Source: Archangium violaceum
GTDB taxonomy: Bacteria > Myxococcota > Myxococcia > Myxococcales > Myxococcaceae
DNA length: 64,000 nucleotides
Assembly (NCBI RefSeq): GCF_016859125.1
Contig: NZ_CP069338.1
Span: 8,993,501-9,057,500 of the forward strand
Direction of reading: 5' to 3'
Shown here: piece after piece, positions 29,058 to 64,000 of the stretch
Numbering within the stretch: position 1 is the stretch's first letter
Layout of the letters: each line of letters begins with the position of its first letter
Translations under genes and position numbers: made by a program
The notes under the pieces: model-generated
Told to the model about the DNA's origin: nothing
Database searches by the model: none
What the model saw: the letters and a program-made list of their open reading frames with translations, nothing else

Positions 29058-29415
29058 GGCTCCGTCCACACACGGGCTCGGGCGCGCACCACACGCGCTC
29101 GAAACCTCGGGCATCTTGGGAAATAAGAGCCGCGGGAATCTTCGGCAAATAGCTAATAAGGACGAAACCCTTCGAGAAAACCGAAGTGAAGCGGGCGCTT
29201 GCTTCATATCCTCGGTGGGTAGACGGGCTGGCGGAGGATTCGCGGAGATTTCCGTCGTGCCCGCACGTTTTCTACGTCGGGCGCCAGACTTCTGATCGAA
29301 GTTGAACCCCTGGCTCGCACTCGAGGGTCATGGCAGCGGCTCCCCCCACACACCAGCCTTCCGGCTGCTCCAAGCGTGCGACCCGTACGTCCGGAGGCAC
29401 ATGGAGGAGCCCTTC
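29058..29415. other. Divergent intergenic region between htpX and the MBL-fold gene
   Basis: 358 bases, no gene seen. An AT-richer island at about 29120-29170 (TTCGGCAAATAGCTAATAAGG) is the best place for the htpX promoter. The right half could start transcription of the MBL-PPTase unit. GGAGGAG at 29403-29409 is the Shine-Dalgarno that fixes the start of the next gene. Confidence 0.5.
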
Positions 29416-30858
29416 ATGCAGCTCACGTTCCTGGGGCACGCTGGCTTTCTGATCGAAACCCAACAGGTCCTGGTCGTCGTGGACCCCTGGTTGTCACCGC
29501 TGGGGGCGTTCGACTCGGCGTGGATGCAGTTCCCGCGCAACCACCAGCTCGCGCCCCTGGTGCGCGAGAAGCTGGAGCACTCGCCCAAGGAGCGCTTCCT
29601 CTACGTCAGCCACGAGCACAAGGATCACTATGATCCCGACTTCCTCCGCACGCTGACGAAGCGGGACTTCACCGTCGTCATCGGCCGCTTCCGACGCACC
29701 GCGCTCAGGGAGGCCTTCGAGGCCTATGGGGCCCGGCGCGTCATCGCCTGCGGGGACCAGCAGGAGGTGCCCTTCGAGAACGGCTGCCTGAAGCTCTACC
29801 TCTCCGACTCGGGGACCCACCGGGATTCGGCGCTGCTGATCCAGGCCGACGGGCAGCGCTTCCTCAACCTCAATGACTGCGAGGTCCATGAGCGGCTGTC
29901 GGCCATCATCGCGGAGGAGGGGCCCATCGACGTCTTCACGGCCCAGTTCTCGGGCGCCATCTGGCACCCCACCTGTTACGACTACTCGCGCGAGGTGTAC
30001 GCGGAGCACTCGCGGCGCAGGCGCTCCCTCAAGTTCGAGGCGGTGGCGCGTGCCATCGAGACGGTCCAACCCCGCGCCTACCTGGCCTCGGCCGGCCCGG
30101 CTTGTTTCCTGGATCCGTCGCTCTTCCACCTCAACCTCGAGCCGGTGAACATCTTTCCCCGTGCCTCGGAGCTCTTCACCTTCCTCCACCACCGTCTGGG
30201 GGGGAGGACGCCGCGCCTCATCGAGCCCATGCCCGGTGACGTGCTCGACGCGGGGCTCGGGGAGCTGGTCTCGATGGTGCCCGAGCGCGTCACCGACGAG
30301 AACCGCTCGCACTACCTGCGCTCCTACGCGACACTCCAGACGCGCATCTTCCGCGAGCGGCGGCGCAACCTGACGCTCGCGCAGGTGGATCGCATCCACC
30401 TGCGGCTCCATCAGGAGATGCAGCGCAAGCTGGAGGCCTTCCCGCTGGCGGATCGTGTGGAGATGCCCCTGTATCTGGGCCTCATCGAGCTGCCCGGGCA
30501 GCTCATCCGCGTGGACTTCCGCTCGCGCCGGGTGGACGTCGTCAGCGAGGTGCGCGACCTGAGCCGGTACATGCTCCGCGCGAGCGCCGTGGACATCGCC
30601 CGCGTGCTGGATCGCGCGCTGAACTGGGAGGACTTCCTGCTGTCGTTCCGCTTCCGCGCCTCGCGCTCGCCGGACGTCTACGATTCCGCCCTGCACGGCT
30701 TCCTCGCCGCCGAGCTCGAGGACCTGCGCGCCATGAACCGTGAACAGACGCGTGGTCGCCGGGCTGGCATGTACGCCCGTGACGCGATAGGGGAAGGGCT
30801 GGACATCACCCATGATGCCGAGCCCCCCTTCCGAGTCGCCCCTATCGCTGCGCCCTGA
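29416..30858 (+). CDS. MBL-fold protein of the CMP-sialate/UDP-MurNAc hydroxylase type, without Rieske domain
   Basis: 480 aa from ATG 29416. The beta-lactamase-fold metal site is VSHEHKDHYDPDF, preceded by LTFLGHAGFLIE and VVDPWLSP. Downstream FSGAIWHPTCYDYSRE and AYLASAGPACFLDPSLFHLN match the non-Rieske half of CMAH/NamH-type sugar hydroxylases. Those enzymes need a Rieske [2Fe-2S] cluster; no CxH...CxxH pair is visible, so this protein would need a separate electron donor or does another reaction. It overlaps the phosphopantetheinyl transferase gene by 47 bases, tying it to the biosynthetic locus. The product is unknown. Confidence 0.72.
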   Translation: MQLTFLGHAGFLIETQQVLVVVDPWLSPLGAFDSAWMQFPRNHQLAPLVREKLEHSPKERFLYVSHEHKDHYDPDFLRTLTKRDFTVVIGRFRRTALREAFEAYGARRVIACGDQQEVPFENGCLKLYLSDSGTHRDSALLIQADGQRFLNLNDCEVHERLSAIIAEEGPIDVFTAQFSGAIWHPTCYDYSREVYAEHSRRRRSLKFEAVARAIETVQPRAYLASAGPACFLDPSLFHLNLEPVNIFPRASELFTFLHHRLGGRTPRLIEPMPGDVLDAGLGELVSMVPERVTDENRSHYLRSYATLQTRIFRERRRNLTLAQVDRIHLRLHQEMQRKLEAFPLADRVEMPLYLGLIELPGQLIRVDFRSRRVDVVSEVRDLSRYMLRASAVDIARVLDRALNWEDFLLSFRFRASRSPDVYDSALHGFLAAELEDLRAMNREQTRGRRAGMYARDAIGEGLDITHDAEPPFRVAPIAAP

Positions 30859-31600
30859 CGAGGTCCACCTCTGGGTGGTGGAGCCGGAGCGTGTGTCCGA
30901 GCCCGGGCTCCTCGCGGCCTACCACGCGATGCTCAGCACGGAGGAGCAGGACAGGCACTCGCGCTTCCGCTTCGAGAAGCACCGGTTGCAGTTCCTCGTG
31001 TCGCACGCGCTGGTGCGCGTCACCCTGTCCCGCTACGCACCGGTGCGGCCCCAGGCCTGGCGTTTCGTCACCAACGCGTATGGGCGTCCGGAGATCGTCG
31101 GCGACGCGCTCCCCCGCCTCCACTTCAACCTCTCGCACACGGACGGCATGGCGGTGTGCGCGGTGGCGCTCGATACGGACGTGGGGGCGGACGTGGAGAA
31201 CTCGGCGCGTCCCGGCCAGACGGTGGAGCTCGCCGACTCCTTCTTCTCGCCCTCGGAGGTGGTGGCCCTGCGCTCCCTGCCCGTCGAGCGCCAGCGCGAG
31301 CGTTTCTTCGACTATTGGACCCTGAAGGAGTCCTACATCAAGGCCCGGGGCGCGGGGCTGAGCCTGCCGTTGGATCAGTTCGCGTTCCACCTGGAGCCCG
31401 GCAAGCCGCCCCGCATCTCCTTCGATCCCCGCCTGAAGGACGATCCCGAGACGTGGCAGTTCGTGCAGGTGCGGCTGTCGGCGGAGCACCCGGCGGCGGT
31501 GGCGGTGCGCCGGGCCCGCGGCCTGCCCCTGACGGTGCGGTGCCAGCGGACCGTGCCGCTGGCAGGGGAGGGGCCTCCCTGGTTCGTCACGGGCTCCTGA
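30812..31600 (+). CDS. Sfp-type 4'-phosphopantetheinyl transferase
   Basis: 262 aa. It transfers phosphopantetheine from CoA to the carrier-domain serine of NRPS/PKS proteins. The magnesium-binding motif appears as VGADVEN (usual GIDIE) and the catalytic helix as FFDYWTLKESYIKARGAG (W-x2-KE-x3-K). Also present is LPRLHFNLSHTDG. It starts inside the MBL-fold gene and ends at the base before the convergent thioesterase stop. It is the obvious activator of the PCP and ACP domains of the neighbouring synthetase. Confidence 0.93.
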   Translation: MMPSPPSESPLSLRPDEVHLWVVEPERVSEPGLLAAYHAMLSTEEQDRHSRFRFEKHRLQFLVSHALVRVTLSRYAPVRPQAWRFVTNAYGRPEIVGDALPRLHFNLSHTDGMAVCAVALDTDVGADVENSARPGQTVELADSFFSPSEVVALRSLPVERQRERFFDYWTLKESYIKARGAGLSLPLDQFAFHLEPGKPPRISFDPRLKDDPETWQFVQVRLSAEHPAAVAVRRARGLPLTVRCQRTVPLAGEGPPWFVTGS

Positions 31601-32365
31601 TCAGGGGCCGACCTCGGGGCACCAGCGGACGATCTCCTCGCGCAGCGCCGCCAGCAATGGCTCGCGGGCGGTGCGCATGAAGAAGTGCTTGCCGGGGAAG
31701 TGGCGGAAGCGGAACTCGCCCGTCGTCAGCTCGCGCCAGTACTCGAGCTCGGAGAGCGGGACGTGCGGATCCTCGAGCGCCCCGAAGGCCGAGAGCGGGC
31801 AGCGCACCGGCACCGCGGGGAGCATGCCATCCGCGATGGAGAAGTCGGCGCGCAGGGACGGCAGGATCATCTCCAACAGCTCCTTGTGGGCGAAGACCTC
31901 GGCGGGCGTGCCCTCGTACTTGCGGAGCAGCTCGACGAAGGCCGCGTCATCGAGCGCATCACGGGACTCGCGGGCGCGGTGGGGTGCCCCCGCGGCGGCC
32001 ATCACCATCCCGAGCGGCAGCGGCGCGCCGCGGACCTGCCAGCGCTGCGCGAGCGCCAGGGCGATCCGCGTGCCCATGCTGTAGCCGAAGAAGACGAAGG
32101 GCTTGTCCAGCAGTGGGGCCAGCGCCGGCTCGAGCGCATCCAGGAGCGGGGGGATCTGCCGGAAGGGCGGCTCCATGATGCGACGCTCACGGCCCGGAAG
32201 CTGGACGGAGACCAGCTCGACACCCGCCGGGAGCGCCGCGCCCCAGCCGTTGTAGACGGAGGCGCCTCCGCCCGCGTACGGGAAGCAGAACACCCGCAGG
32301 CGTGCGTTGGGGAGTGGCTGCCGGGTGGGGAACCAGGGATTCGTGGAGGGGTTCGCGGGACGCAT
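31601..32365 (-). CDS. Type II (editing) thioesterase
   Basis: 254 aa. Alpha/beta hydrolase of the GrsT/RifR type: LRVFCFPYAGGGASVY near the N-terminus, nucleophile in FFGYSMGTR, Asp region FGALEDPHVPLSE and the His in RHFPGKHFFM, in the right order. It removes aberrant or stalled acyl groups from carrier domains of assembly lines. It is divergent from the large NRPS-PKS gene, with the two starts 168 bases apart, so they may share a control region. Confidence 0.93.
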   Translation of the reverse strand: MRPANPSTNPWFPTRQPLPNARLRVFCFPYAGGGASVYNGWGAALPAGVELVSVQLPGRERRIMEPPFRQIPPLLDALEPALAPLLDKPFVFFGYSMGTRIALALAQRWQVRGAPLPLGMVMAAAGAPHRARESRDALDDAAFVELLRKYEGTPAEVFAHKELLEMILPSLRADFSIADGMLPAVPVRCPLSAFGALEDPHVPLSELEYWRELTTGEFRFRHFPGKHFFMRTAREPLLAALREEIVRWCPEVGP

Positions 32366-32532
32366 GTCCCTGCATCTAGCACGGAGCGTCAAACCAGGAA
32401 CGGGGGACGAGCACCCAGGCGCGGTCGCGAGACTCTAGTACGAGCCCACGAGTGCCTCGCCGCCGAGCGTTGCCGCCCTTGTTACCCACATGACAACATT
32501 GGGGGGCCTCCCCCCACCCATTTTCTCAGGGG
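32366..32532. promoter_or_regulatory. Divergent control region of thioesterase and NRPS-PKS genes
   Basis: 167 bases between divergent start codons. It ends with a perfect GC hairpin at 32501-32515 (GGGGGG, CCT, CCCCCC) whose 3' side is 17 bases before the synthetase ATG and could affect ribosome access. No convincing -10/-35 pair can be named. Confidence 0.45.
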
Positions 32533-35500
32533 ATGGAGCACCTCCTCCAGATGACCGCCGCCGAGCCCCAGGAACCCGTGTCCCTTCCGCTGTCCCATGG
32601 TCAGCGGGCCTTGTGGTTCCTGCACCAGAGCGCGCCCGGGAGCGCCGCCTACAACCTCGCGTTCTCCGCGCGGACCCGCCCGCTGTTGGACGCCGTGGCA
32701 CTGCGGCGGGCCAGCCAGTCACTGATGGACCGGCACCCCATTCTGCGCACCGTCTTCGTGGAGCGCTCCGAAGGCCCCGTGCAGGAGGTGCGCTCCGGCG
32801 TCGTCATCCCCTTCGAGGAGCTGGACGCGTCCGGCTGGAGCGAGGCGGCGCTGGAGTCCTGGTTGGTGGAGCGCTACCAGCGTCCGTTCGAGCTGGCACG
32901 GGGGCCCCTGCTGCGCATCCATCTGCTGCGGCGCGGGGAGGAGTCCCTGTTGCTGCTCGTGGTGCATCACATCGTCATCGACTTCCCGTCGCTGGTGGAG
33001 CTGATGCACGAGCTGGGTGGGCTGTACGCCGCCGAGACGCGCGGAGAGGCGCCTCCCGCTCCGTGGACCGTCCGCCCCTACGCCGACTTCGTCCACTGGC
33101 AGGAGGAGCGCGCCAGCGGCGAGGAGGGAGAGCGTCATTGGGCCTACTGGAAGGAGGCGCTCGGCGGTGAGCTGCCCTCGATCGAGCTTCCGGTCGACCG
33201 TCCCTACCCACCGGTCCAGTCGCCCCGCGGCGACATCCTCCTGTTCGAGCTGTCCCCGGAGCTGTCCCGGGGAATCAAGGAGCTGGCCCGAGCGAACGGT
33301 GCCACGCTGTACAACACGCTGTTGAGCGCCTGGCAGGTGCTCCTGCACCGCTACTCGGGGCAGGAGGAGATCCTCGTGGGCACGCCCGCGTCCTGCCGCG
33401 GCCGCCGCACCGGGTTCGCCCAGACGCTGGGCTATTGCGTCAACCCGATCGTGCGCCGGGGCAGGCTGGAGGGGGATCCTCGCTTCTCCGAGGTCGTCGC
33501 CCAGGCGCGTGACAATGCCTCCGCCGCCGTTCCGCACCAGGAGTACCCCTTCGACGTCATCGTCGAGCGCTTGCAGGCCGCGCGCGCTCCGAGCCGGCCC
33601 GCGATCTTCCAGGTCGCCTTCGTGGTGCTCGGCTCGCAGCGCTACCCCCAGGCACTGCGCTTCACCCAGGGCCTCCCCGGCGGACATATCGAGTGGGGCG
33701 ATGGGCGGGTGATGGAGTCGCTGCCCTTCCGGCAGGGCGTCACCCGCTTCGAGCTGGACCTGATGATGAGCGAGGAGGGGGAGCGGATCTTCGGTTACCT
33801 CCTCTACAACACCGACCTCTTCGATGACGCCACCGCCTGGCGGATGACGGGGCATTTGCGCGTGCTGCTGGAGGCCGTGGTCGCGGATCCCTCGCGGCGC
33901 ATCTCCTCGCTGCCGGTGCTCACGGAGGAGGAGCGCGCCCAGCTCCTCCTGGCGTGGAACGACACCCGTCAGCCCGTGCCCGAGCCCACCTTCCCGCGCC
34001 GCTTCGAGGCCCAGGTGCGGCGCACGCCCGATGCCCTGGCCGTCTCCTTCGAGGACGTGTCGTGGACCTATGCGGAGCTGGACTCGCGGGCCAACCAGCT
34101 CGCGCACCACCTGCGCTCCCTGGGCGTGGGACCGGGCACCCGCGTGGGTCTGTCCGGCGAGCGTTCGCTCCAGATGCTCCAGGGCTTGCTGGCCATCCTC
34201 AAGGCAGGGGGCTCCTACGTGCCCCTGGATCCCTCCTTCCCCGAGGAGCGGCTCGCCTTCATGGTGGAGGATGCGCGGCTGCGTGTGCTCCTCTCCGGGC
34301 CCGCGCTGTTGGAGCGGCTCGGTGGCGCGGTGGAGGGGATGACGGTGGTGCGGCTCGACTTGGAGCGCGAGCTCGTGGGGCGACTGCCGGAGTCGGCTCC
34401 CGAGGGCAACCCCGGGCCGGACGACGTGGCGTATGTCCTCTTCACCTCGGGTTCCACCGGACGGCCCAAGGGCGTTCAGATCCAGCACCGCGCGCTGGCC
34501 CACTTCCTCCACGCCATGCGCCAGGAGCCGGGCCTGGAGCCCGGAGATGTGCTGCTCGCCGTCACCACGCTGTCCTTCGACATCGCGGGCCTGGAGCTGC
34601 TGCTGCCACTCACCGTCGGTGCGCGCGTGGACATCGCCCGCCGGGAGGTGGCCACGGATGGAGCCCGGCTGGTCGCGCGCATGGCCTCCATCGGCGCCAC
34701 GGTGATGCAGGCCACGCCCACCACCTGGCGCCTGCTGCTGGACGCCGGCTGGAAGGGCCACCCGCAGTTGAAGATGCTCTGTGGCGGTGAGGCGCTCCCG
34801 CGCGATCTGGCCAACGCGCTGGTCCCATGTGGCGCCGGGCTGTGGAACCTCTACGGGCCCACCGAGACCACCATCTGGTCCATGGTGCACCGGGTGGATG
34901 TGGGGCAGGGGTCCGTCTCCATCGGGCGGCCCATCGCAAACACCCGGGTGTACGTGCTGGATCGTCATCAGCAGCCCGTTCCCGTGGGCGTTCCCGGCGA
35001 GCTGTACATCGGCGGCGAAGGCGTGGCCCTGGGTTACCTCCACCGGCCCGAGCTGACCGCCGAGCGTTTCGTGCCCGACCCCTTCCAGGAGGTGCCTCAC
35101 GCTCGCATGTACCGCACGGGCGACCGGGTGCGCTGGCGCGTGGATGGGCGGATGGAGTTCCTCGGACGGATCGACCATCAGGTGAAGGTGCGCGGCTTCC
35201 GCATCGAGCTCGGGGAGATCGAGTCCGTGTTGCGCCAGCACCCGGCGGTGCGTGATGCCGTGGCGGTGGCGCGCGAGCTCTCCCCGGGCGATCAGCGTCT
35301 GCTCGCCTACGTGGCCATGCAGCCGGATGCCGCCGTCGAGGAGTCGCAGCGGCTGCGCACCGAGCAGGTCGATCAGTGGCGCACCGTCTGGAGCGAGATC
35401 TACCGCGAGGGTGCCGGGACGGGGCAGGGCTCGCGGGATCCGGACTTCGACATCTCCGGGTGGAGCAGCAGCTACACCGGCCAGCCCATCCCCGCCGAGG

Positions 35501-38500
35501 AGATGCGCGAGTGGGTGGAGACCACCGCCGCGGACATCCTCGCGCTGAAGCCGAAGCGGGTGCTGGAGCTCGGCTTCGGCAGTGGCATGGTGCTCTTCCG
35601 CGTGGCGCCCTCGTGCGAGCGGTACGTGGCCGCGGACTTCTCGGCGGCGGCGGTGGAGAACGTACGGCGGGGGGTGGAGGCGCGCGGGCTGTCCCAGGTG
35701 ACGCTGCTGCAGCGGGCGGCCGACGATTTCTCGGGCATCGAGCCGGGCTCGTTCGACCTCGTCATCATCAACTCGGTCGTCCAGTACTTCCCCAGCGCCG
35801 AGTACCTGCGCACCGTGCTCGCGGGCGCGGTGGTCGCGGTGCGTCCGGGCGGCGCCGTCTTCGTGGGTGACGTGCGGAGCCTGCCGCTGCTGGAGGCCTT
35901 CCACACCTCGGTGCAGCTCCACCAGTCCGCGCCCACGCTCTCCCGGGCCGAGTTGCTCCAGCAGGTGCGCAAGGCGGTGGCCCAAGAGGAGGAGCTGGTC
36001 CTCGCGCCCGGGTTCTTCCTGGCGTTGCGACGGGAGTTGCCGCGCATCGGCCGCGTGGACATCACCCCCCGGCGCGGGCGCCTCCTCAACGAGATGAGCC
36101 GCTTCCGCTACCAGGCCGTCCTGCGCGTGGGCGAGGTGCCCCCGGCGGCGCGGGCCTCGTGGACGGATTGGGAGGAGGCGTGGACGCCGGAGGCCATCCG
36201 TCAGCACCTGGAGCGCGAGGCCCCGGAGGCATGGGGTTTGCGTGGCGTGCGCAACGGCCGGCTGGAGCAGGAGGTGCGAACGCTCCAGTGGATGGAGGCC
36301 GGTGGTGCCGGCACGGTGGGCGAGTGGCGGGCGGAGCTCGCGGCCCACGTGCCCGTGGGCGTGGATCCAGAGGCACTGTGGCGGCTCGGTGAGTCGCTGG
36401 GCTACTCGGTCGCGCCGGGCTGGAGCCGCCATGGCTCTGACGGCCGCTACGATGTCGTCTTCTGGCGCGGTGCCGCCGAGCCGGAGCGCGTGCCTCCCGG
36501 GGTCGAAGTGGACCCCGAGGGTGGGGTGCTCGCCAATCAGCCGCTGCTGACCCGGCGCACCCGTCTCCTCGGGCCCGAGCTCCGCGCCTTCCTCAAGGAG
36601 CGGCTCCCCGAGTACATGGTGCCGTCGTCGCTCACCGTGCTCGAGGCGCTTCCACTCACGCCCAACGGCAAGGTGGATCGCAAGGCGCTGCCAGAGCCCG
36701 AAGGGCTTCGTTCGGGCCGCCAGGCCATCGTCGACGCGCCCCGCTCGGACGTGGAGAAGGCCATTGGCGCCATCTGGCGCGAGGTGCTCCACCTGGAGCA
36801 GGTGGGCCTGCACGACAACTTCTTCGAGCTCGGGGGGCACTCGCTGCTGCTCGCCCAGGTGCGCGTGCGGCTGCGCGAGGTGCTCGGCAAGGAGCTTCCC
36901 GTCACCGAGCTCTTCCAGCACCCCACCATCAGCGCCCTCGCGCGTCACCTGTCCGGCCCCGGTGCGGGTCCCGAGGCGCGTCAGCCCGTGAGCGCGCCCG
37001 TGCCACGGCGCTCGGACGGGGAGTTGGCGCCCATCGCCATCGTCGGCATGGCGGGCCGCTTCCCTGGCGCTCGAGACGTGGACGAGTTCTGGCGCAACCT
37101 CCGCGAGGGGGTGGAGTCCATCCGCTTCTACTCGCCCGAGGAGCTGGTGGCGCTCGGGGCGGATCCGGCGCTGGCGCGCGATCCGTCCTTCATCCGCGCG
37201 GCCTCGTCCCTGGAGGGCGTGGAGCAGTTCGACGCCGGGCTCTTCGGCTACTCGCCTCGCGAGGCGGAGCTGATGGACCCGCAGCACCGCCTCTTCCTGG
37301 AGTGCGCCTGGGAGGCCCTGGAGGTCGCGGGTTACAGCCCGAGGACCCGTCAGGGCGCTTCCGTGGGAGTGTTCGCTGGCCTCGCGCCCAATGGCTATCT
37401 GCCCTTCGCCCACCTGCTGGGCAACCTCCGCTCCGAGGTGCTGCCCCGCTTCGTGGCCGGCTCGGCGGACTTCCTCGCCACGCGTGTCTCCTACAAGCTG
37501 AACCTCCGCGGTCCCAGCCTCACGCTGCAGACGGCCTGCTCCACCTCGCTCGTGGCCGTCCACCTGGCCTGCCAGTCGCTGCGCTCCGGGGAGTGCGGCA
37601 TGGCCCTGGCCGGTGGTGTCTCGGTGAAGGTGGCTCGCGTGCCGGGCTACTTCCACCAGGAGGGCGGCATCGCCTCGCCGGACGGGCACTGCCGCGCCTT
37701 CGATGCGCGGGGGCAGGGCACCCTCTTCGGCAACGGCATGGGCCTCGTCGTCCTCAAGCGACTGTCGGATGCGCTCGCCGATGGGGACAGGATTCACGCC
37801 GTCATCCGCGGCACCGCCATCAACAACGATGGCTCCGCCAAGGTGGGCTTCACCGCCCCCAGCGTGGACAGCCAGGCCGAGGTCGTCTCCCGCGCGCTCG
37901 CCGCCGCCGGGGTGGGGCCGGAGACCATCGGCTACGTCGAGGCCCATGGCACCGCCACGCCCCTGGGAGATCCCATCGAGGTCGCCGCGCTCCGGCAGGC
38001 CTTCGGGCCTCACGTGCGCGAGCGCTCCTGTGCGCTCGGCTCGGTGAAGACGAACATCGGCCACCTGGATGCCGCCGCGGGCATCGCCTCGCTCATCAAG
38101 GCCGTGCTCGCGCTGGAGCACCGGCAGCTTCCCCCGAGCCTCCACTTCCAGACGCCCAACCCGGAGATCGACTTCGAGCGCGGGCCCTTCTACGTCAACA
38201 CCGCGCTGGCCGAGTGGCCCTCGAACGGCGGGCCTCGCCGCGCCGGGGTGAGTGCGTTCGGCTTCGGCGGGACCAACGCGCACGCGGTGCTGGAGGAGGC
38301 TCCCGCCGCCCCGCCTGTTCGTTCCGAGGGTCCAGAACGCCCGCTGCATGTGCTGCCCCTGTCGGCCCGGGATGAGAAGGCGCTCGGGATGCTCGCGGAG
38401 CGATACGCGGAGTACCTCGCGAAGGAGCCCGCTTCGTTGCCGGACGTGTGCTTCACCGCGGGCGCCGGACGTACGCACCTCGGTCAGCGCGTGGCCCTCG

Positions 38501-41500
38501 TGGCCGACTCGCATGCACAGCTCCGCGAGCGGCTCGAGGCCTTCCGCGCGGGGCGGACCGGGGCGGGGGTGTACTCGGGCCGGGTTCGCGAGGAGGGTCC
38601 GCCCAAGGTGGCCTTCCTCTTCACGGGCCAGGGCAGCCAGTACGTGGGCATGGGGCGCGAGCTGTACGCGTCTCAGCCGGTGTTCCGCCAGGCGCTGGAC
38701 AGGTGCGACGCGTTGCTGCGCCCCCACCTCGAGCGCCCGCTGCTGTCGGTGCTCTTCCCGCCCGAAGGGGAGCCGGGCTCGTTGCTCGACGAGACGGGTT
38801 ACACGCAGCCGGCGTTGTTCTCGCTGGAGTATGCGCTGGCGGAGCTGTGGCGCTCGTGGGGCGTGGAGCCGCACGCGGTGCTGGGTCACAGCGTGGGCGA
38901 GTACGTGGCGGCGTGCGTGGCCGGAGTGTTCAGCCTGGAGGAGGGGCTGAAGCTGATCGCCGAGCGCGCGCGTTTGATGCAGTCGCTGCCTCGAGACGGG
39001 GAGATGGCGGCCATCTTCGCCGAGGAGGCGAGGGTGGCCGAGGCGCTACGGCCCCACTCGCGGCAGGTGTCCATCGCCGCCATCAACGGTCCCACCGAGG
39101 TGGTCATCTCCGGCGCGCGCGCGGCGGTGCGGGCCGTGGTGGAGCGGCTGAGGAACGAGGGTGTCGAGTGCCGCTCGCTGCAGGTGTCGCACGCGTTCCA
39201 CTCGCCGCTGCTGGAGCCGATGCTCGGCGGATTGGAGCGAGCGGCCTCGGGTGTGTCCTTCCGCGCCCCGCGCATCGAGCTCATCTCCAACCTCACGGGC
39301 CGTCCGGTGACGGGCCTGTCCGCCGAGTACCTGCGTCGTCACGCGCGCGAGCCGGTGCGCTTCCTCGACAGCCTGCGCGCCCTGCGCGAGAGCGGCGTGA
39401 CGGTGTTCGTGGAGATCGGCCCCCAGCCGACGCTGTCGGGGTTGGGGCAGCGCGGTCTTCCGGAGCTCCAGGCGGCGTGGCTGCCCTCGCTGCGCAAGGG
39501 CCGGGACGACTGGCGGGCGATGCTCGAGACGCTGGCCTCGCTCTACACGCGCGGTGTGGAGGTGGACTGGGCGGGGTTCGAGCGGGGCTACTCTCGCCGC
39601 CGCGTGAAGCTGCCCACCTACGCCTTCCAGCGGCGCCGCTACTGGGTGGAGCCGGCCGAGCTGGAGGCTCGGATCGAAGGAGCTCGGGTGGAGCCGTCGG
39701 TGCCCTCCGTGCTTCCGGGCAAGCGGCTTCGTTCCGCGGTGCCCCTCTTCGAGGCGCGACTGGAGGCGGGCTCGAAGCCGGTGCCTCCGGTGGCCTTCGC
39801 GGTGGCGGCCTTGGAGGCCGCGGAGTCCGTGCTCGGACGTGCCGCCTCGGTGGTGGAGGACCTGGAGATCCACGAGCCACTGGTCCTGGAGCGTGGGCCC
39901 CGCACCGTGCAGTCCGTGCTGACGAAGGAGGGGACGGGACAGGTGTCCTTCCGCATCTCCAGCAGTGGGGATGAGTCACCGGAGGCTCCGTGGTTGTTGC
40001 ACGCCTCGGGCCGGGTGCGTGCCGGGCGTGCGGGCGCCGGAGCGGCCCAGGTGTCCGTCGCCGGGATTCGGGCACGTTGTTCGCGGGTGCACGGCTCCGT
40101 CTGGTCTCGGGAGGGTGAGGCCCTGGGCGAGCTGCCCGGTGGAACACTGACGGGTGCGGATGTCTCGTCCTGGCTGGAGACTTCCTTCCAGGTGCTCGCG
40201 GCGGCGTTGCCCGCGCATGTGGGAATGGCGGATGGGGCACTCTCCTTCGCTGGCGCCGAGCGCATCGCCCTCTTCGAGCGGAGCGCGGCCGTGCGGTGGG
40301 TCCGTGCCGTGGCTCGCGACGACGAGGAGCGTCCCTGTGGGGATCTTCAGTTCCTCGACGAGCGGGAGACGGTCGTGGCCGAGGTGTCCGGCCTGCGCTT
40401 GCGCCGTCTCGGAGCGGCCGAGGTCCGCGAGGAGTCGCCAGCGCTTCGCACCGAATGGCTGTGCGAGGTGGCGTGGCGACGACAGGAACTCGTGCCGTCC
40501 ATGCCGGCCGCCGAGCGGGGAGGGGGCTGGCTGCTGCTGGCGGACGAGGGCGGTGTCGCCGAACGGTTGGCTTCACTGCTGTCCGCGCGAGGCGAGGCCG
40601 TGGTACGGGTCCGCCGGGGCTCGCGTTGTGAGCAGGTGGCCCCGGGCTCATGGACCGCGGATCCGCTCCGGGCCGAGGATCTCCAGCGGGTCGTGGCCGG
40701 AGCCTTCCCGGCTGGAGGCCCGCGGCTTCGTCGCGTGGTGTACCTGTGGGGCCTGGATGCGCACGAGCCAGAGCAGGCCGAGGCCCTCACGTGCGGTGGC
40801 TCGCTGCGGCTCGTGCAGGCGCTCGCGGGCAGCGGGGTGGATGCGCGGCTGTGGCTGGTGACGCGCGGAGCCTTCGCGGTGGAGCAGGGCGCACGGGTCG
40901 CCGCCTGGCAGGCGCCGCTGATCGGCCTGGGCCGGACCATCGCCCTGGAGCAGCCCTCGCTGTGGGGTGGCCTCGTGGACCTGGATGCGTCCTCGTCTCC
41001 GGGCGAGGCGGAGTCCCTGCTGGGGGTGGTGCTCGTCCCGGGCGGAGAGGACCAGGTGGCGCTGCGTGGAGCCGAGCGCCGGGTGCCTCGCGTGGTGCGC
41101 GGCGACCCCCGCCCCGGGGCACAGTGGAGCCCTCGAGCGGATGCGACGTACCTCGTCACCGGTGGCCTCGGTGCGCTCGGGTCGTGCGTGGCCCGGTGGC
41201 TGGTGGAGCGCGGCGCGCGGAACCTCGTGCTGGTGGGACGCAGTGGCGCTGGTGAGGCCGCTTCCAGCGCCCTCGAGTCACTGCGGGCTCGGGGTGCGCG
41301 GGTGGAGGTGGTTCGTGCCGACGTGTCCCGCGCGGACGAGGTCTCCCGGATGCTGGAGCACGTGCGCCAGGAGTGGCCGCCGCTTCGGGGCGTGTTCCAC
41401 GCGGCCGGCGTGCTCGACGACGGCGTGTTGCAGGGACAGGATCCGGCGCGGTTCCACAAGGTGCTCGCGCCCAAGGCGCGGGGCGCGTGGAACCTGCACA

Positions 41501-42339
41501 CCGCTACCCGCGAGCTGCCGCTGGATGCCTTCGTCCTCTTCTCCTCGGGGGCCTCGCTGGTGGGCTCTCCCGCCCAGGGCAGCTACGCCGCGGCCAACGC
41601 CTTCCTGGACGCGCTCGCGCACCAGCGGCGCGCCGAGGGCCTGCCAGCGCTCAGCATCCACTGGGGCCCCTGGGCCGACGTGGGGATGATGACGACCCTC
41701 GACGCGCTCGCGAGGCAGCGGTGGAAGGAGCTCGGCGTTGGCCTCATTCCTCCCGCCGAGGCGCTGGCCCTGCTGGGCCAGCTGCTGGCCGGTGCTCCCG
41801 CGGAGATCGGCGTGCTGCCCATCGACTGGGCGCGCTTCGCCGGAGTGCTCGGGATGACGGGTCCGCTCCTCTCGGAGCTGATGCGGCGGCCGGTGGCCAC
41901 TCGTTCCGCCGAGGCGCCGCGCCTCACCCTCCGGCAGCGGCTGGAGACGGCACCCGTGAAGGAGCGCATGGACGTGGCGGTCTCGTCCCTCCAGCGCGTG
42001 GTGGCGGAGCTGCTCAAGCTCGATGGCGGGGAACTGCCCGAGCCCGAGCAGGGGCTGTTCGCACTGGGGTTGGATTCGCTGATGGCGCTGGAGCTGCGCA
42101 ACCGTCTCCAGACGGAGCTCGAACGGACGCTGCCGAGCACGTTGGCCTTCAGCTTCCCGAACATCATCGCCCTGGCCACGCACCTGCTTCAGGAGTTTCC
42201 TCCCGCCGTGTCCGCCCCCGAGTCCATCCTGGACCAGGCTCCTGGCGAGGTGCCGGAGTCGATCGAGGCACTTTCCGAAGGCGAGCTGGCCGACCTGCTC
42301 GACGCCGAGGTGGCGGCGATCCTCGAGAAGCGCGGATGA
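32533..42339 (+). CDS. Hybrid NRPS-PKS: C-A(Gly)-NMT-PCP-KS-AT-DH*-KR-ACP
   Basis: 3268 aa. C domain (about 15-440; H145-HIVID-F has the catalytic His pair). A domain (about 475-910 and 1340-1390; FTSGSTGRPKG at 637). Pocket residues read D-I-L-Q-C-G-L-I-W(-K), one change from the glycine code. An N-methyltransferase is inserted between A8 and A9 (about 945-1290; SAM site VLELGFGSGM). PCP Ser1437. KS Cys1669, His1805, His1844. AT Ser2120 with HAFH (2220-2223), so malonyl-CoA. A DH-like region (about 2390-2640) lacks the catalytic His. KR (GGLGALG at 2877; LDD at 2961-2963 suggests B-type; Tyr3018). ACP Ser3182, then an acidic C-terminal docking tail. Expected product: an N-acyl-sarcosyl beta-hydroxy chain passed to another PKS. 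No upstream module is visible, so the first C domain may acylate with a starter (inference). Confidence 0.93.
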   Translation: MEHLLQMTAAEPQEPVSLPLSHGQRALWFLHQSAPGSAAYNLAFSARTRPLLDAVALRRASQSLMDRHPILRTVFVERSEGPVQEVRSGVVIPFEELDASGWSEAALESWLVERYQRPFELARGPLLRIHLLRRGEESLLLLVVHHIVIDFPSLVELMHELGGLYAAETRGEAPPAPWTVRPYADFVHWQEERASGEEGERHWAYWKEALGGELPSIELPVDRPYPPVQSPRGDILLFELSPELSRGIKELARANGATLYNTLLSAWQVLLHRYSGQEEILVGTPASCRGRRTGFAQTLGYCVNPIVRRGRLEGDPRFSEVVAQARDNASAAVPHQEYPFDVIVERLQAARAPSRPAIFQVAFVVLGSQRYPQALRFTQGLPGGHIEWGDGRVMESLPFRQGVTRFELDLMMSEEGERIFGYLLYNTDLFDDATAWRMTGHLRVLLEAVVADPSRRISSLPVLTEEERAQLLLAWNDTRQPVPEPTFPRRFEAQVRRTPDALAVSFEDVSWTYAELDSRANQLAHHLRSLGVGPGTRVGLSGERSLQMLQGLLAILKAGGSYVPLDPSFPEERLAFMVEDARLRVLLSGPALLERLGGAVEGMTVVRLDLERELVGRLPESAPEGNPGPDDVAYVLFTSGSTGRPKGVQIQHRALAHFLHAMRQEPGLEPGDVLLAVTTLSFDIAGLELLLPLTVGARVDIARREVATDGARLVARMASIGATVMQATPTTWRLLLDAGWKGHPQLKMLCGGEALPRDLANALVPCGAGLWNLYGPTETTIWSMVHRVDVGQGSVSIGRPIANTRVYVLDRHQQPVPVGVPGELYIGGEGVALGYLHRPELTAERFVPDPFQEVPHARMYRTGDRVRWRVDGRMEFLGRIDHQVKVRGFRIELGEIESVLRQHPAVRDAVAVARELSPGDQRLLAYVAMQPDAAVEESQRLRTEQVDQWRTVWSEIYREGAGTGQGSRDPDFDISGWSSSYTGQPIPAEEMREWVETTAADILALKPKRVLELGFGSGMVLFRVAPSCERYVAADFSAAAVENVRRGVEARGLSQVTLLQRAADDFSGIEPGSFDLVIINSVVQYFPSAEYLRTVLAGAVVAVRPGGAVFVGDVRSLPLLEAFHTSVQLHQSAPTLSRAELLQQVRKAVAQEEELVLAPGFFLALRRELPRIGRVDITPRRGRLLNEMSRFRYQAVLRVGEVPPAARASWTDWEEAWTPEAIRQHLEREAPEAWGLRGVRNGRLEQEVRTLQWMEAGGAGTVGEWRAELAAHVPVGVDPEALWRLGESLGYSVAPGWSRHGSDGRYDVVFWRGAAEPERVPPGVEVDPEGGVLANQPLLTRRTRLLGPELRAFLKERLPEYMVPSSLTVLEALPLTPNGKVDRKALPEPEGLRSGRQAIVDAPRSDVEKAIGAIWREVLHLEQVGLHDNFFELGGHSLLLAQVRVRLREVLGKELPVTELFQHPTISALARHLSGPGAGPEARQPVSAPVPRRSDGELAPIAIVGMAGRFPGARDVDEFWRNLREGVESIRFYSPEELVALGADPALARDPSFIRAASSLEGVEQFDAGLFGYSPREAELMDPQHRLFLECAWEALEVAGYSPRTRQGASVGVFAGLAPNGYLPFAHLLGNLRSEVLPRFVAGSADFLATRVSYKLNLRGPSLTLQTACSTSLVAVHLACQSLRSGECGMALAGGVSVKVARVPGYFHQEGGIASPDGHCRAFDARGQGTLFGNGMGLVVLKRLSDALADGDRIHAVIRGTAINNDGSAKVGFTAPSVDSQAEVVSRALAAAGVGPETIGYVEAHGTATPLGDPIEVAALRQAFGPHVRERSCALGSVKTNIGHLDAAAGIASLIKAVLALEHRQLPPSLHFQTPNPEIDFERGPFYVNTALAEWPSNGGPRRAGVSAFGFGGTNAHAVLEEAPAAPPVRSEGPERPLHVLPLSARDEKALGMLAERYAEYLAKEPASLPDVCFTAGAGRTHLGQRVALVADSHAQLRERLEAFRAGRTGAGVYSGRVREEGPPKVAFLFTGQGSQYVGMGRELYASQPVFRQALDRCDALLRPHLERPLLSVLFPPEGEPGSLLDETGYTQPALFSLEYALAELWRSWGVEPHAVLGHSVGEYVAACVAGVFSLEEGLKLIAERARLMQSLPRDGEMAAIFAEEARVAEALRPHSRQVSIAAINGPTEVVISGARAAVRAVVERLRNEGVECRSLQVSHAFHSPLLEPMLGGLERAASGVSFRAPRIELISNLTGRPVTGLSAEYLRRHAREPVRFLDSLRALRESGVTVFVEIGPQPTLSGLGQRGLPELQAAWLPSLRKGRDDWRAMLETLASLYTRGVEVDWAGFERGYSRRRVKLPTYAFQRRRYWVEPAELEARIEGARVEPSVPSVLPGKRLRSAVPLFEARLEAGSKPVPPVAFAVAALEAAESVLGRAASVVEDLEIHEPLVLERGPRTVQSVLTKEGTGQVSFRISSSGDESPEAPWLLHASGRVRAGRAGAGAAQVSVAGIRARCSRVHGSVWSREGEALGELPGGTLTGADVSSWLETSFQVLAAALPAHVGMADGALSFAGAERIALFERSAAVRWVRAVARDDEERPCGDLQFLDERETVVAEVSGLRLRRLGAAEVREESPALRTEWLCEVAWRRQELVPSMPAAERGGGWLLLADEGGVAERLASLLSARGEAVVRVRRGSRCEQVAPGSWTADPLRAEDLQRVVAGAFPAGGPRLRRVVYLWGLDAHEPEQAEALTCGGSLRLVQALAGSGVDARLWLVTRGAFAVEQGARVAAWQAPLIGLGRTIALEQPSLWGGLVDLDASSSPGEAESLLGVVLVPGGEDQVALRGAERRVPRVVRGDPRPGAQWSPRADATYLVTGGLGALGSCVARWLVERGARNLVLVGRSGAGEAASSALESLRARGARVEVVRADVSRADEVSRMLEHVRQEWPPLRGVFHAAGVLDDGVLQGQDPARFHKVLAPKARGAWNLHTATRELPLDAFVLFSSGASLVGSPAQGSYAAANAFLDALAHQRRAEGLPALSIHWGPWADVGMMTTLDALARQRWKELGVGLIPPAEALALLGQLLAGAPAEIGVLPIDWARFAGVLGMTGPLLSELMRRPVATRSAEAPRLTLRQRLETAPVKERMDVAVSSLQRVVAELLKLDGGELPEPEQGLFALGLDSLMALELRNRLQTELERTLPSTLAFSFPNIIALATHLLQEFPPAVSAPESILDQAPGEVPESIEALSEGELADLLDAEVAAILEKRG

Positions 42340-42444
42340 CACTTTCCGGTAAATAACAAGAAATACGGTGAAATCAGGACAAACCTCGTGCATACACCGA
42401 GTGACGAACACCGGTGTTCGTCCGCATGCAGGAGGAATGGCTTC

Positions 42445-43911
42445 GTGAAAACGCAGGGGATCGCTCGCTCTCTGTCTCTTCGTCGCTTCGTCCTGGGCTC
42501 GCTGACGCTCGCGTCGGCCTTCGCCTGTGGCCCGGCGCCTGAAACGGCTCCTGGGACCACGACCCTCACCGTGGACGCGCAGGCCGCGACCACCGAGCTG
42601 CTCTCCAACGGAAACTTCAGCTCGGGCACGACCACACCGTGGTGGAACGGGGCCAACACCACGTCCCGCGTCGAGAATGGTCAGTGGCGTGTGGATGTCA
42701 CGGGGAGCACCTCCAACCCGTGGGACGCGATAGTCGGGCAGAGCGCCGTCTCGCTGACGAGTGGTCAGGCGTACACCCTGGCGTTCACCGCCACGGCCAC
42801 GGCGAGTGTGTCGGTCCGCGTGACGGTGCAGATGGAGAGCGCGCCGTACACCGTGACGCTGGATCGGCAGATCTCGCTCGATGCCACGTCACGGCGGTTC
42901 TCGTTCCCGTTCACCTCGTCCCTGTCCACCAACCAGGGGCAGGTGACCTTCCAGCTCGGCGGCCGAGGCGCCTTCACGGCCCGGCTCGATGACATCTCGC
43001 TCACCACGAGTGGAGGCAGCAGCGGCTCCGGACCGCTCGCGATGACCAGCGGCTTCTATGTCGATCCGAACTCCAACCCCGCGGCGTGGGTGCGTGCCAA
43101 CGGGGGAGACTCGCGTGCGTCGCGCATCCAGTCGGCCATCGCGAGCAAGCCGGGCGCGCGCTGGTTCGGCAACTGGAGTGGAGATATCGCCGCGGCGGTG
43201 TCTGGCTTCGTCGGAGCCGCCGATGCCGCCGACAAGCTGCCGGTGCTCGTGGCCTACAACATCCCCGGGCGCGACTGCGGCAGCCACTCCGCTGGTGGCG
43301 CGGGCAGCCCCGAGGCCTACCGGACCTGGATCTCCGCGTTCGCGGCGGGCATCGGCAACCGCCCGGCCATCGTCCTGATCGAGCCGGACGCCCTGGCCCA
43401 GCTGGACTGCCTGTCGAATGACACCGAGCGCCAGACCCGGCTGAGCCTGCTGCGCTATGCCACCGAGCAGCTCCGCGATCGCGCGCCGAACACGTGGGCC
43501 TATCTCGATGGCGGAAACGCCTCATGGATCGCCGCCGACACGATGGCCCAGCGGCTGGAGTCCGCCGGGGCACGCAACATCCGGGGCTTCGTCCTCAACG
43601 TGTCGAACTTCTACACCACGGCCCAGTCGAGCTCGTACGCCGCGGCGGTCAACACCGCCCTGTCCAACCGGTACGGGTACACCCTGCCGTTCGTGGTGGA
43701 TACCAGCCGCAATGGCAACGGCTCCAACGGTGAGTGGTGCAATCCGGCCGGGCGCAAGCTCGGTACTCCGTCGCAGATCGGCGGAGGGGCCGAGCTGCTG
43801 CTGTGGGTGAAGGTTCCCGGTGACTCGGATGGTTCGTGCGGTATCGCCCCGGGCGTGCCCGCGGGTCAGTTCAGCCCCGATCTGGCGATCCGTTTGATCG
43901 ACGGGACGTGA
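42445..43911 (+). CDS. Exported GH6 glucanase with N-terminal carbohydrate-binding module
   Basis: 488 aa from GTG 42445, with GGAGGA 8 bases upstream. A Sec signal (RRFVLGSLTLASAFACG, possibly lipoprotein) precedes a CBM4/9-like beta-sandwich (about 50-190; LLSNGNFSSGTTTPWW). A Ser/Gly linker leads to a GH6 catalytic domain (about 205-488): LPVLVAYNIPGRDCG with the catalytic-acid Asp, VLIEPDALAQLDCL, DTSRNGNGSNGEWCNPAGRKLG and LLLWVKVPGDSDGSCG. GH6 enzymes hydrolyse cellulose beta-1,4 bonds with inversion. An AT-rich spacer at 42345-42400 likely carries its promoter. It has no evident link to the adjacent synthetase. Confidence 0.92.
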   Translation: MKTQGIARSLSLRRFVLGSLTLASAFACGPAPETAPGTTTLTVDAQAATTELLSNGNFSSGTTTPWWNGANTTSRVENGQWRVDVTGSTSNPWDAIVGQSAVSLTSGQAYTLAFTATATASVSVRVTVQMESAPYTVTLDRQISLDATSRRFSFPFTSSLSTNQGQVTFQLGGRGAFTARLDDISLTTSGGSSGSGPLAMTSGFYVDPNSNPAAWVRANGGDSRASRIQSAIASKPGARWFGNWSGDIAAAVSGFVGAADAADKLPVLVAYNIPGRDCGSHSAGGAGSPEAYRTWISAFAAGIGNRPAIVLIEPDALAQLDCLSNDTERQTRLSLLRYATEQLRDRAPNTWAYLDGGNASWIAADTMAQRLESAGARNIRGFVLNVSNFYTTAQSSSYAAAVNTALSNRYGYTLPFVVDTSRNGNGSNGEWCNPAGRKLGTPSQIGGGAELLLWVKVPGDSDGSCGIAPGVPAGQFSPDLAIRLIDGT

Positions 43912-44811: not shown

Positions 44812-44868
44812 CCCGCCGCGCCAGTTCTGGTATCTCAGTCTCGGATATCTCAGGGGGGCATTTCCATT

Positions 44869-45402
44869 CTACTCCGGGCTCCACTTTTCTACTCCGTGTC
44901 TTGGGGAAACAAGGTTGGGATCAGTGTGGAGGATTTGTTTATAGACATCGCCCTGTGTGCGGCCCAACCAGGGCCCTTTCATATACCTGCTCCAGACGGC
45001 GGGGTTGGTCTCTGGGCACGGGCTTCTGCCATTGAAGTGGTAGTCGTTGACCTCCTGATCCGCCTTGCGGACACACTGCACGATGGCCTTCTCGACCTTC
45101 GCGAGCAGGTCCGCGGCCAGCTCCACGCCCCGGCGCTCGGCTGCGTCGATCACGGGGTTCAACGCCACGGTTACAGCCACACCGGCGGCAATCACCTTGA
45201 TGCCCGTCGAGTAGGTCGACGCGCCCGTGCAGCGCTCCCATTGCCCGGGGAACTCCTTGAGGCAGCACTCGGGCGACAGGTCTCGTGGGCCACACTTCCC
45301 CGCGGTCTCGATGGGGGGCTCTGACTCCAACAGGCACCCCGCTTGGAGTGCGGCCAGGAGCACCAGGAGTCGTATGGGCCCACTCTTCACGGTATGAAGC
45401 AT
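44869..45402 (-). CDS. Lipoprotein toxin remnant, nuclease core deleted
   Basis: 177 aa. The lipoprotein signal ends LAALQAGC. The next ~115 residues align with the right copy: CGPRDLSPECCLKEFPGQW, RRGVELAADLLAKVEKAI and NDYHFNGRSP. The sequence then jumps to CPETNPAVWSRYMKGPW, the right copy's C-terminal part. About 112 residues, including the whole PD...DLK nuclease core of the right copy, are missing, with frame kept; the junction is near 45020. The product would keep the lipid anchor and the N-terminal module but no toxin activity. It could be a decayed gene or an inert/decoy lipoprotein. Confidence 0.75.
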   Translation of the reverse strand: MLHTVKSGPIRLLVLLAALQAGCLLESEPPIETAGKCGPRDLSPECCLKEFPGQWERCTGASTYSTGIKVIAAGVAVTVALNPVIDAAERRGVELAADLLAKVEKAIVQCVRKADQEVNDYHFNGRSPCPETNPAVWSRYMKGPWLGRTQGDVYKQILHTDPNLVSPRHGVEKWSPE

Positions 45403-45472
45403 GGGACTCACGATAGCGTGGGTGGTCGAGGCACCATGAGCACATCGACAGAGGAGCGCAGGGTGGGGACGG

Positions 45473-58982: not shown

Positions 58983-60350
58983 TCAGGCCACCTGCTTCTG
59001 GGGTTGGCCGAACCGGGGCCGCACCTCGTCCAGCACCACGGGCATTCCCCTCGAGGGCGCGAACATGATGCTCCGGCGCACCATGTGGATGGGGCGCTTC
59101 GAGGCCAGCCGCAGCTTCGCCCGGCGCAGCATCGTGGCCAGGACCACCTTCATCTCGAACAACGAGAGCGCCATGCCCAGGCACCGGCGCGAGCCTCCCC
59201 CGAAGGGCAGCCACGCGTACGGGTCCGGCTTCTTCCCGAGGAAGCGCTCCGGTTGGAAGCTATCGGGCTCCGGGTAGATGTCCTCGCGCAGGTGGGTGAG
59301 CGCGATGCCCGGTACCAGCATCGTCTCGGGAGGCAGCGTGTAGGTGGACAGCTCGAACGGCACCTTCGTCCGGCGCGATACGAGCGGCACCACCGGCCTC
59401 AGCCGCAGCGTCTCCTTGATGACCGCGTCCAGGTACTCGAGCTGGCCGAGATGCTCCGCCTGGAGCTCCGTGTCTCCCACCACCCGCTCCAGCTCCTCGT
59501 GCACGCGAGCCAGGGCCTCGGGCGTGGAGAGCAGCCGCTCCACGGTGAAGCACATGCCGATCGCCGTGGTCTCATATCCCGCCACGATCACGGTGAAGAG
59601 CGCGTCGCGCAGCTCCCTGTCGGTGAGGGGCTGGCCCGCCTCGTCCCGGCTCTCCAACAGCAGGCTGAGCATGTCCTGGCGCCGGGGATCCGCCGGCTGC
59701 GCGCGCCGGTGGGCGATGAGCGCGTAGATGGCCTCGTCCACCTCCCGCTTCATCTTCGAGGCTCGCAGCCAGGGCACCTTCTGGAACACGTCCACTCCGC
59801 TGAGCGCCGGGATCAGGTACAGCGGCGAGGCGATGCTGTCCACGAGCCGCGGGAATCGCCTGGCGAAGAGCGCCAGTTCCTCCTTGCCCTCGATACCGAA
59901 GACGCTGCGCAGCAGGATCTCGATCGTGAGCGACATCATGCGCGGCAGCAGCGGGAAGGGTTTGCCCACGGGCCACTGCTCCAGCGACGCGTGGGTGGTC
60001 TCCCGCATCGGGCCGGCATAGGTGTGAAGCCTCTCCCCCTGGAACGGCGGCAGCAGCAGGCGCCGCAGCCGGATGTGCTCCGCTCCGTCCTGCATCACCA
60101 GGGAGCTCGATCCCACCAGCGGCAGAATCACCGCGTTGCCCTCTCCCGCGTGCAGCGCGTCCGGTGGGGCGTTGAAGATGCGTTTGATATCCTCGGGCGC
60201 GCTCACGAAGACGAACTCGCCCATGCCGGACATACGTAGGGTGAAGGTGTCTCCGTGACGCTTCCGTTGCTTCCTCAGGAATGACAGCGGGTCGGCCATG
60301 TACAGCGACATCTGCAGCGGGCTCGGCAGCGCGGGGCCTGGGGGGAGCAT
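58983..60350 (-). CDS. Cytochrome P450
   Basis: 455 aa. Heme-binding loop FGGGSRRCLGMAL with the thiolate Cys, ExxR in KETLRLRP, I-helix oxygen-activation site AGYETT, and PERF region DSFQPERFLG. No membrane anchor, so a soluble class needing ferredoxin partners or a shared reductase; none is encoded nearby. P450s of this length next to PKS genes usually hydroxylate or epoxidise the finished chain. It is divergent from the PKS gene at 60590, with 239 bases between them. Confidence 0.95.
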   Translation of the reverse strand: MLPPGPALPSPLQMSLYMADPLSFLRKQRKRHGDTFTLRMSGMGEFVFVSAPEDIKRIFNAPPDALHAGEGNAVILPLVGSSSLVMQDGAEHIRLRRLLLPPFQGERLHTYAGPMRETTHASLEQWPVGKPFPLLPRMMSLTIEILLRSVFGIEGKEELALFARRFPRLVDSIASPLYLIPALSGVDVFQKVPWLRASKMKREVDEAIYALIAHRRAQPADPRRQDMLSLLLESRDEAGQPLTDRELRDALFTVIVAGYETTAIGMCFTVERLLSTPEALARVHEELERVVGDTELQAEHLGQLEYLDAVIKETLRLRPVVPLVSRRTKVPFELSTYTLPPETMLVPGIALTHLREDIYPEPDSFQPERFLGKKPDPYAWLPFGGGSRRCLGMALSLFEMKVVLATMLRRAKLRLASKRPIHMVRRSIMFAPSRGMPVVLDEVRPRFGQPQKQVA

Positions 60351-60553: not shown

Positions 60554-60589
60554 GTGAAACTCCTGACCCGCTCGTCCACTCTCCCCGAC

Positions 60590-64000
<3,411 letters not shown>

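Follow-up and report, generated by a model that had tools for sequence, protein, structure and literature searches.

Background

Ajudazol has the formula C34H42N2O7, and its methyl positions and chain serve here for comparison. Ajudazol A (molecular weight 590) is described as an isochromanone with two hydroxyls, an oxazole, a Z,Z-diene and a terminal methoxybutenoic acid methylamide, the acyl end being taken as the pharmacophore (PMC8360190), and another account has the isochromanone ring closed by the thioesterase (TE) (PMC4901931). Here we describe W, a hybrid nonribosomal peptide synthetase (NRPS)-polyketide synthase (PKS) gene in a 64,000-nucleotide stretch of Archangium violaceum DNA ("the window"; G000:C1:8993501-9057500, on a 12.68-Mb myxobacterial chromosome), and weigh its likeness to this and three other systems. 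The corallorazine NRPS (crz) of Corallococcus coralloides resembles W in being myxobacterial, with an adenylation (A) domain whose embedded methyltransferase (MT) makes N-methylglycine, but it is a two-module NRPS with sarcosine second, reductive release and no PKS module; its first condensation (C) domain was shown to make octanoyl-serine from octanoyl-CoA (PMC11342130). Lyngbyapeptin LynB2/LynB3 likewise joins an N-methylating A domain to a C domain fed by the acyl-acyl carrier protein (acyl-ACP) of a short PKS, yet is cyanobacterial, without sarcosine, and has its ketosynthase (KS)-acyltransferase (AT) and O-methyltransferase-ACP present (PMC10127204). Myxobacterial first modules of the order fatty acyl-AMP ligase (FAAL)-ACP-C-A-peptidyl carrier protein (PCP) (among them L048, L051 and two from the W genome) share the C-domain clade of W, with HHxxxDF and GYFVNP, but bring their own FAAL-ACP, which W lacks.

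The favoured explanation, to which we give a probability of about 0.6, is that W is the acyl-ACP-fed NRPS-PKS subunit that initiates an assembly line of the ajudazol type. W and eight PKS genes further downstream, g1-g8, are best read as one such line, which we consider probable. The reading builds on features shown by the sequence, namely the domains, the glycine code, a dead dehydratase (DH), the AT types, the C-domain clade and the lack of a loading module in g1-g8. From these we infer an acyl donor, a transfer from W to g1, ring formation and a chemistry as follows. The acyl-ACP that feeds the C domain would be made outside W, its acyl group being more probably short or of polyketide type than a long-chain fatty one. 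The C domain would join this group to glycine, which the A domain would load and the embedded MT convert to N-methylglycine on the PCP. The PKS half would add one malonyl unit, reduced to the 3-hydroxy stage because the DH is dead, and a C-terminal docking helix would hand the chain to g1; g1-g8 would then contribute four more PKS units, an azole derived from Cys or Ser and a further five PKS units, with release by the TE probably yielding an isochromanone.

A Probable N-Acyl-Sarcosine Module

W encodes 3268 amino acids (aa), and open reading frame (ORF) and Pfam analyses give the order C-A-NMT-A-PCP-KS-AT-DH(dead)-KR-ACP-docking helix, where NMT is the N-methyltransferase and KR a ketoreductase. 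Pfam matches fall at residues 18-472 (Condensation), 491-836 (AMP-binding), 1010-1107 (methyltransferase) and 1411-1473 (PCP), followed by KS, AT, a weak DH, KR and a second carrier. An earlier note on this DNA had described 32533-36960 as C-A-NMT-PCP; ORF and order were right, but the description stops short, covering only the first 1476 of the 3268 residues and missing a full PKS module that runs to 42339, and it does not mention the further PKS line that begins at 60554. Its observations that the gene opens with a C domain with no module before it, and that an NMT is embedded in the A domain, both hold. The C domain starts at residue 18, and domain queries over all frames of the 64-kb window found no NRPS or PKS module upstream of W, nor did any FAAL or ACP gene turn up in the rest of the window; besides a 4′-phosphopantetheinyl transferase (PPTase) and a thioesterase, such domains are confined to W and 60551-64000. 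The MT splits the A domain into an A8-side and an A10-side part, and PDB chain 5wmm, labelled only "NRPS", aligns over residues 10-914 of a 920-residue A-MT-A query. We take 5wmm to be the N-methylating A-M-A protein TioS.

Aligned with other A domains (185 rows, some places occurring twice), W has the pocket DILQLGLIW, which matches the glycine code itself. The same columns yield DFWNIGMVH in seven rows, DVWHISLID in two and DAWTIAAVC in three, which we take to be the textbook codes for Thr, Ser and Phe; because they give textbook codes for other domains, the columns are judged right. A DIL start is found in 15 of the 185 rows, W included. The previous reading of the pocket as DILQCGLIW, one residue off the glycine code, named the right amino acid but the wrong residue, having mistaken 300 (C) for 299 (L), so that the case for glycine is stronger than was then held. 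The pocket codes read at the MT-bearing loci L038-L045 do not include the glycine code, and no open paper with the string DILQLGLIW was found. Pocket code and A-M-A alignment agree in predicting glycine activation with N-methylation, as had been proposed, and the presence in W of an N-acyl-sarcosine-forming initiation module is well supported and highly probable. In Nostoc sp. CHAB 5824 (L135:1220-5779), the arrangement C-A(DILQLGMIW)-MT-PCP is likely another sarcosine module with its C domain first.

The KS of W carries QTACSTS, as does that of module m6 in g1-g8, the other KS that follows a PCP, while the remaining eight KS domains carry DTACSSS. The AT has the malonyl motif HAFH and the KR is complete, with LDD. 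The DH lacks the HxxxGxxxxP stretch, and E replaces D in its second motif. The chain predicted to leave W is acyl-N(CH3)-CH2-CH(OH)-CH2-CO-S-ACP.

The Condensation Domain and Its Predicted Acyl Donor

The C-domain motif was noted before to end in D-F rather than D-G, and HHIVIDF is indeed read in W. Its context was examined in 217 C domains of at least 400 aa from the same genome, relatives, and loci found by similarity to the W C domain. Because of this choice of loci, several of which are present twice (L047 = L076; by position and motif also L049/L089, L058/L104 and L074/L105), the raw counts are biased: F follows D in 45/54 FAAL-ACP-fused domains, 0/87 PCP-fused domains and 1/5 PKS-ACP-fused domains, and among N-terminal domains in 3/16 behind a PKS gene and 0/19 behind an NRPS gene. 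Of the 52 DF domains, W is the sole one with nothing found upstream. Thinning at 62% identity leaves 12/21 FAAL-fused against 0/42 PCP-fused. P after VN shows a similar split (49/54 FAAL-fused vs. 0/87 PCP-fused). When stretches of the W genome were taken regardless of motif, DF appeared in both FAAL-ACP-fused domains and in none of the 30 others read, W not counted. Exceptions are the FAAL-ACP-fused domains of L044 and L045, fetched for their MT, which read DG, as well as six that read DL and one DM; DF therefore points to an acyl-ACP donor, but the converse does not hold. These patterns suggest that HHxxxDF is a habit of an acyl-ACP-fed clade and not decay. In a literature search, the string HHxxxDF was not found in the papers listed among the matches.

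The clade was examined by a PDB search and trees. In the PDB, Txo2 (249 bits) and Txo1 (247 bits) are the top matches of the W C domain, with the starters RzmA (56) and CDA-C1 (33) far below; judged by these bit scores, W is unlike the canonical starters (the Starter subtype of Rausch 2007), of which the trees hold no row. A quick tree, built from 122 representatives, placed W in a clade of 39 rows, none of them PCP-fed (support 94); its one-clade test, however, scored higher a topology that leaves W outside the other 38 (lnL +71, p-AU 0.83), and the quick tree is therefore not relied on. Five of its 15 PKS-fed and two of its 21 FAAL-fused representatives fall outside the clade, which thus does not hold every acyl-fed C domain. 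The 39 rows, as picked from this quick tree, were used in two careful trees, the first of 63 rows (with 22 of 41 eligible PCP-fed rows, drawn at random, and two outgroup rows), the second with a different draw of 19 PCP-fed rows and the five outlying PKS-fed rows. In both, the 39 rows including W, and no PCP-fed row, form a clade with 100/100 support; their contexts are 19 FAAL, 10 PKS (three fused, seven in an upstream gene), two ACP gene, four other and four none, W among the last. In the first careful tree, single PCP-fed rows attach at the next two nodes (100/100 and 98/96), and constraining W to the 22 PCP-fed rows fails the AU test (p-AU 0.026), whereas constraining those rows alone does not (0.275). 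W has the marks of the acyl-ACP-fed (FAAL/PKS) clade, which are a place in it and DF or DL plus VNP. The earlier note had proposed a C-domain phylogeny as a check, and grouping with LCL domains did not occur; of its "starter C domain acylating N-methylglycine", the N-acylating role stands with the clade and the AU test, and a canonical starter is not supported.

Within the clade, W falls in an 18-row sub-branch (support 80/93 and 87/93 in the two careful trees) with nine PKS-fed rows, two with an ACP gene, four other, three none and no FAAL (one of 19 in the quick tree). As this sub-branch is PKS- or ACP-fed, a short acyl-ACP donor is likelier than a fatty acid, and a PKS-type or free acyl-ACP is predicted as the more likely donor. 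The "lipo" product of the earlier note is accordingly doubtful. A long-chain fatty acid, supplied by a FAAL in trans or as acyl-CoA, would suit the predominance of FAAL-ACP-fused domains among those with DF (45/52; thinned, 12/18), the two separate FAAL-like genes in the genome (1.67 and 1.70 Mb) and a W N-terminus too short for a docking domain. We nevertheless regard it as rather unlikely: neither careful tree has a FAAL-fused row in the sub-branch, soft though that placement is (W just outside the other 38 rows, p-AU 0.297), the further HHIVIDF domains of the 217-domain sample occur only in L047 and L082, both behind PKS genes, and the window holds no FAAL or ACP gene of its own.

The Downstream Polyketide Synthase Line

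The genes g1-g8 span about 52 kb on the + strand, from window position 60554 to G000:C1:9106241. Their modules are m1 (KS-AT-DH-ER-KR, ER being an enoylreductase), m2 (KS-AT-KR), m3 (KS-AT-DH-KR), m4 (KS-AT-DH-ER-KR), m5 (TubC-Cyc-A-Ox-PCP), m6 (KS-AT-DH-ER-KR), m7 (KS-AT-KR), m8 (KS-AT), m9 (KS-AT-DH-KR) and m10 (KS-AT-DH-ACP-TE), with an ACP in each PKS module. In g1, a docking helix is followed by an ordinary elongation KS (DTACSSS), with no loading module, and the C-terminal tail of W (PESIEALSEGELADLLDAEVAAILEKRG) resembles that of g2 (PENLDTLSEAELRKLLDAELAAATDLIES), both being the same kind of helix. Since a PKS line without a loading module follows W, the final compound is probably larger than the acyl-sarcosyl acid itself. 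Of the six other modular PKS loci of the genome, located by AT matches (E 1e-20), three start with FAAL-ACP (8.60, 9.13 and 12.29 Mb), two with an extra AT or ACP (3.39 and 11.44 Mb) and one, at 8.51 Mb, with a C-first NRPS. Six of the eight best own-genome matches of the W AT are ATs of g1-g8 (58-68% identical), and the top two matches of its KR also lie there (56 and 53%).

Set beside ajudazol of Chondromyces crocatus (BGC0000954/AM946600), W and g1-g8 share the N-methylglycine-type amide end, a P450, and five PKS units up to the azole followed by five more and TE release, probably to an isochromanone. W has C-A(Gly)-NMT-PCP followed by PKS, as in an ajudazol-type line, five extensions separate N-methylglycine from the azole, and an azole module precedes five PKS modules and a TE (m5-m10), provided that g1-g8 belong to the same line. 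Among the ten ATs, the methylmalonyl motif YASH occurs only in m4, m6 and m9 (the units on either side of the azole and the aromatic methyl), which correspond to the methyl positions of ajudazol. With a 3-methoxybutenoyl end, the carbon count is 5+1+2+8+3+3+3+2+2+3+2 = 34.

Several observations weigh against this reading. W and g1 are set apart by 18 kb of unrelated genes, and no genome with the two joined was found among the sampled relatives. A position of W just outside the other 38 clade rows is not rejected in the first careful tree (p-AU 0.297), which leaves its sub-branch placement soft. The second-best match of the W AT (12.28 Mb, 68%) and the third of its KR (3.37 Mb, 51%) lie in other clusters, so the domain similarity is not exclusive. 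Both m3 and m4 depart from the usual DH motifs (S for P and E for G, respectively), the DH-like domain of m9 is without its His, and m10 carries a DH but no KR; set against the KR / none / dehydrating KR / none plus TE order of an ajudazol-type aromatic ring, the pattern is not textbook. Differences from ajudazol itself include the m5 code (DLYNIASVW in the 185-row alignment), which is not that of Ser although the ajudazol oxazole is Ser-derived, a hydroxyl predicted from the dead DH of W where ajudazol has a double bond, and a single P450 seen. Ajudazol also has a methoxybutenoate PKS, and KS, AT and ACP queries found none beside W, in the window or at the PKS loci mapped in this genome (an O-methyltransferase query was not run). 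The likeness is one of module order, methyl branches and carbon count, with AM946600 compared by description only. Ajudazol likenesses of 53-61% are reported for Myxococcus faecalis and Gemmatimonadota (PMC12211065, PMC11651109), which shows that resemblance to ajudazol is sometimes incomplete. Our best reading remains a line of the ajudazol type whose N-acyl end is altered and which an accessory block divides.

W might instead act alone, making N-acyl-N-methyl-4-amino-3-hydroxybutyrate that the neighbouring type II thioesterase (TEII) frees as a small lipid-like product. An isolated gene with a PPTase and TEII adjoining, far from g1, would fit; we consider it improbable, however, as the two neighbours are a genus cassette not belonging to W, W ends in a docking helix, and g1-g8 would be left without a starter. 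Although no donor gene was found beside W, a silent C domain, with free N-methylglycine starting the chain and DF as decay, is very improbable, given that HHIVIDF keeps both His and the Asp, the domain aligns at full length with few gaps, and DF is usual in its clade.

Relatives were searched around g4. In four genomes (G033, G146, G019 and G116), g4 has a counterpart at 60% over residues 2-991 and the TE has one at 47-49%; g1-g8 joined to W were not seen where the surroundings of this gene were read (G116 and G146). In these two (L174 in G116:C2 and L180 in G146:C2), KS-AT-ACP stands directly before TubC-Cyc-A-PCP, with a homologous terminal TE, which suggests a relative with a shorter start. 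Elsewhere in the W genome (G000:C1:903205-903504), a 100-residue piece, 89% identical to the g8 TE and with a stop codon, is perhaps the relic of a second such cluster.

Genomic Neighborhood and Conservation

Orthologue comparisons scored the best candidates, at most nine, per genome, the W genome included. No W orthologue was seen in 59 genomes, the best match including MT and PCP reaching 44%; the C domain has a best match of 48% in 179 genomes of the phylum and 49% in named contigs (L078), and g4 has no close match in the sampled relatives. W and g1-g8 therefore look strain-specific.

The PPTase and TEII genes upstream of W (Table 1) are adjacent in all five other genomes of the genus, and 79-90% and 79-87% identical, respectively, in the three read. 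The pair adjoins differing NRPS lines in G001 and G003, lies 28 kb from one in G002 and has none within the 26 kb read of G015; as a conserved genus cassette, the two were rejected as W-specific partners. A 518-aa MBL-fold protein (29302-30858) overlaps the PPTase gene and has a weak likeness to NAPE-PLD in the PDB (E 0.0019). On the other side, 49 bp past W on the same strand, lies a GH6 glycosidase gene with CBM_4_9 (42388-43911).

Beyond this GH6 gene, the gap between W and g1 contains a twice-present gene pair, a five-gene operon flanked by its two copies, a hydrolase gene and a P450 gene. The pair, a TsiV-type immunity gene and its neighbour, forms a direct duplication (43954-46753 and 55706-58972; three DNA pieces 71-78% identical), inside which lie the SWIM-DUF5691-MoxR-DUF5682-VWA operon (46806-54919) and the hydrolase. 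In G003 and G005 the operon is 79-92% identical with other neighbours, the other window genes being absent from the 40 kb read, and the DUF5682 gene had no match at E 1e-50 in the remaining three genomes of the genus. The block thus looks accessory, which makes it plausible that W and g1 were once closer.

Table 1. Features of W and adjacent genes, in window coordinates.
Feature	Position	Strand	Basis
PPTase, genus cassette	30812..31600	+	Pfam, relatives
TEII, same genus cassette	31601..32392	-	Pfam, relatives
W, hybrid NRPS-PKS	32533..42339	+	ORF, Pfam
C domain, predicted acyl-ACP-fed clade, HHIVIDF and GYCVNP	32584..33948	+	Pfam, motif counts, trees
Active-site motif HHIVIDF (C3)	32965..32985	+	motif reading
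A domain before MT insertion (end approximate), pocket DILQLGLIW (glycine)	34003..35352	+	Pfam, PDB alignment, A-domain alignment
Embedded NMT, boundaries approximate, Pfam core aa 1010-1107	35395..36522	+	Pfam, PDB alignment
Remaining A domain with A10 (NGKVD)	36535..36717	+	motif, PDB alignment
PCP	36763..36951	+	Pfam
KS, QTACSTS	37030..38307	+	Pfam, motif
AT, malonyl type (HAFH)	38614..39561	+	Pfam, motif
DH remnant	39769..40425	+	Pfam, motif
KR, GGLGALG, LDD and S-Y-N	41143..41679	+	Pfam, motif
Terminal ACP, boundaries approximate	41950..42177	+	Pfam
Putative C-terminal docking helix (PESIEALSEGELADLLDAEVAAILEKRG)	42253..42336	+	sequence
Cytochrome P450, putative tailoring enzyme of g1-g8	58983..60350	-	position
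g1 start (GTG 60554 or ATG 60590), KS-AT-DH-ER-KR-ACP; proposed W partner	60554..64000, leaves window	+	domain queries

Implications

We tentatively propose that HHxxxDF with GYFVNP marks a C-domain subtype for non-amino acyl chains delivered from ACPs, of which W may be a free-standing form. It would bring in an acyl-ACP in trans for transfer to N-methylglycine, and an ajudazol-type line would thereby begin with a novel N-acyl end. Two short motifs would then help annotators distinguish many C domains fed by acyl-ACPs from those fed by peptides, a distinction that the usual starter/LCL names do not draw. If W starts g1-g8, the strain would hold a testable ajudazol-type pathway with a different acyl end, and W would be a natural counterpart to swapping the pharmacophore end of ajudazol.

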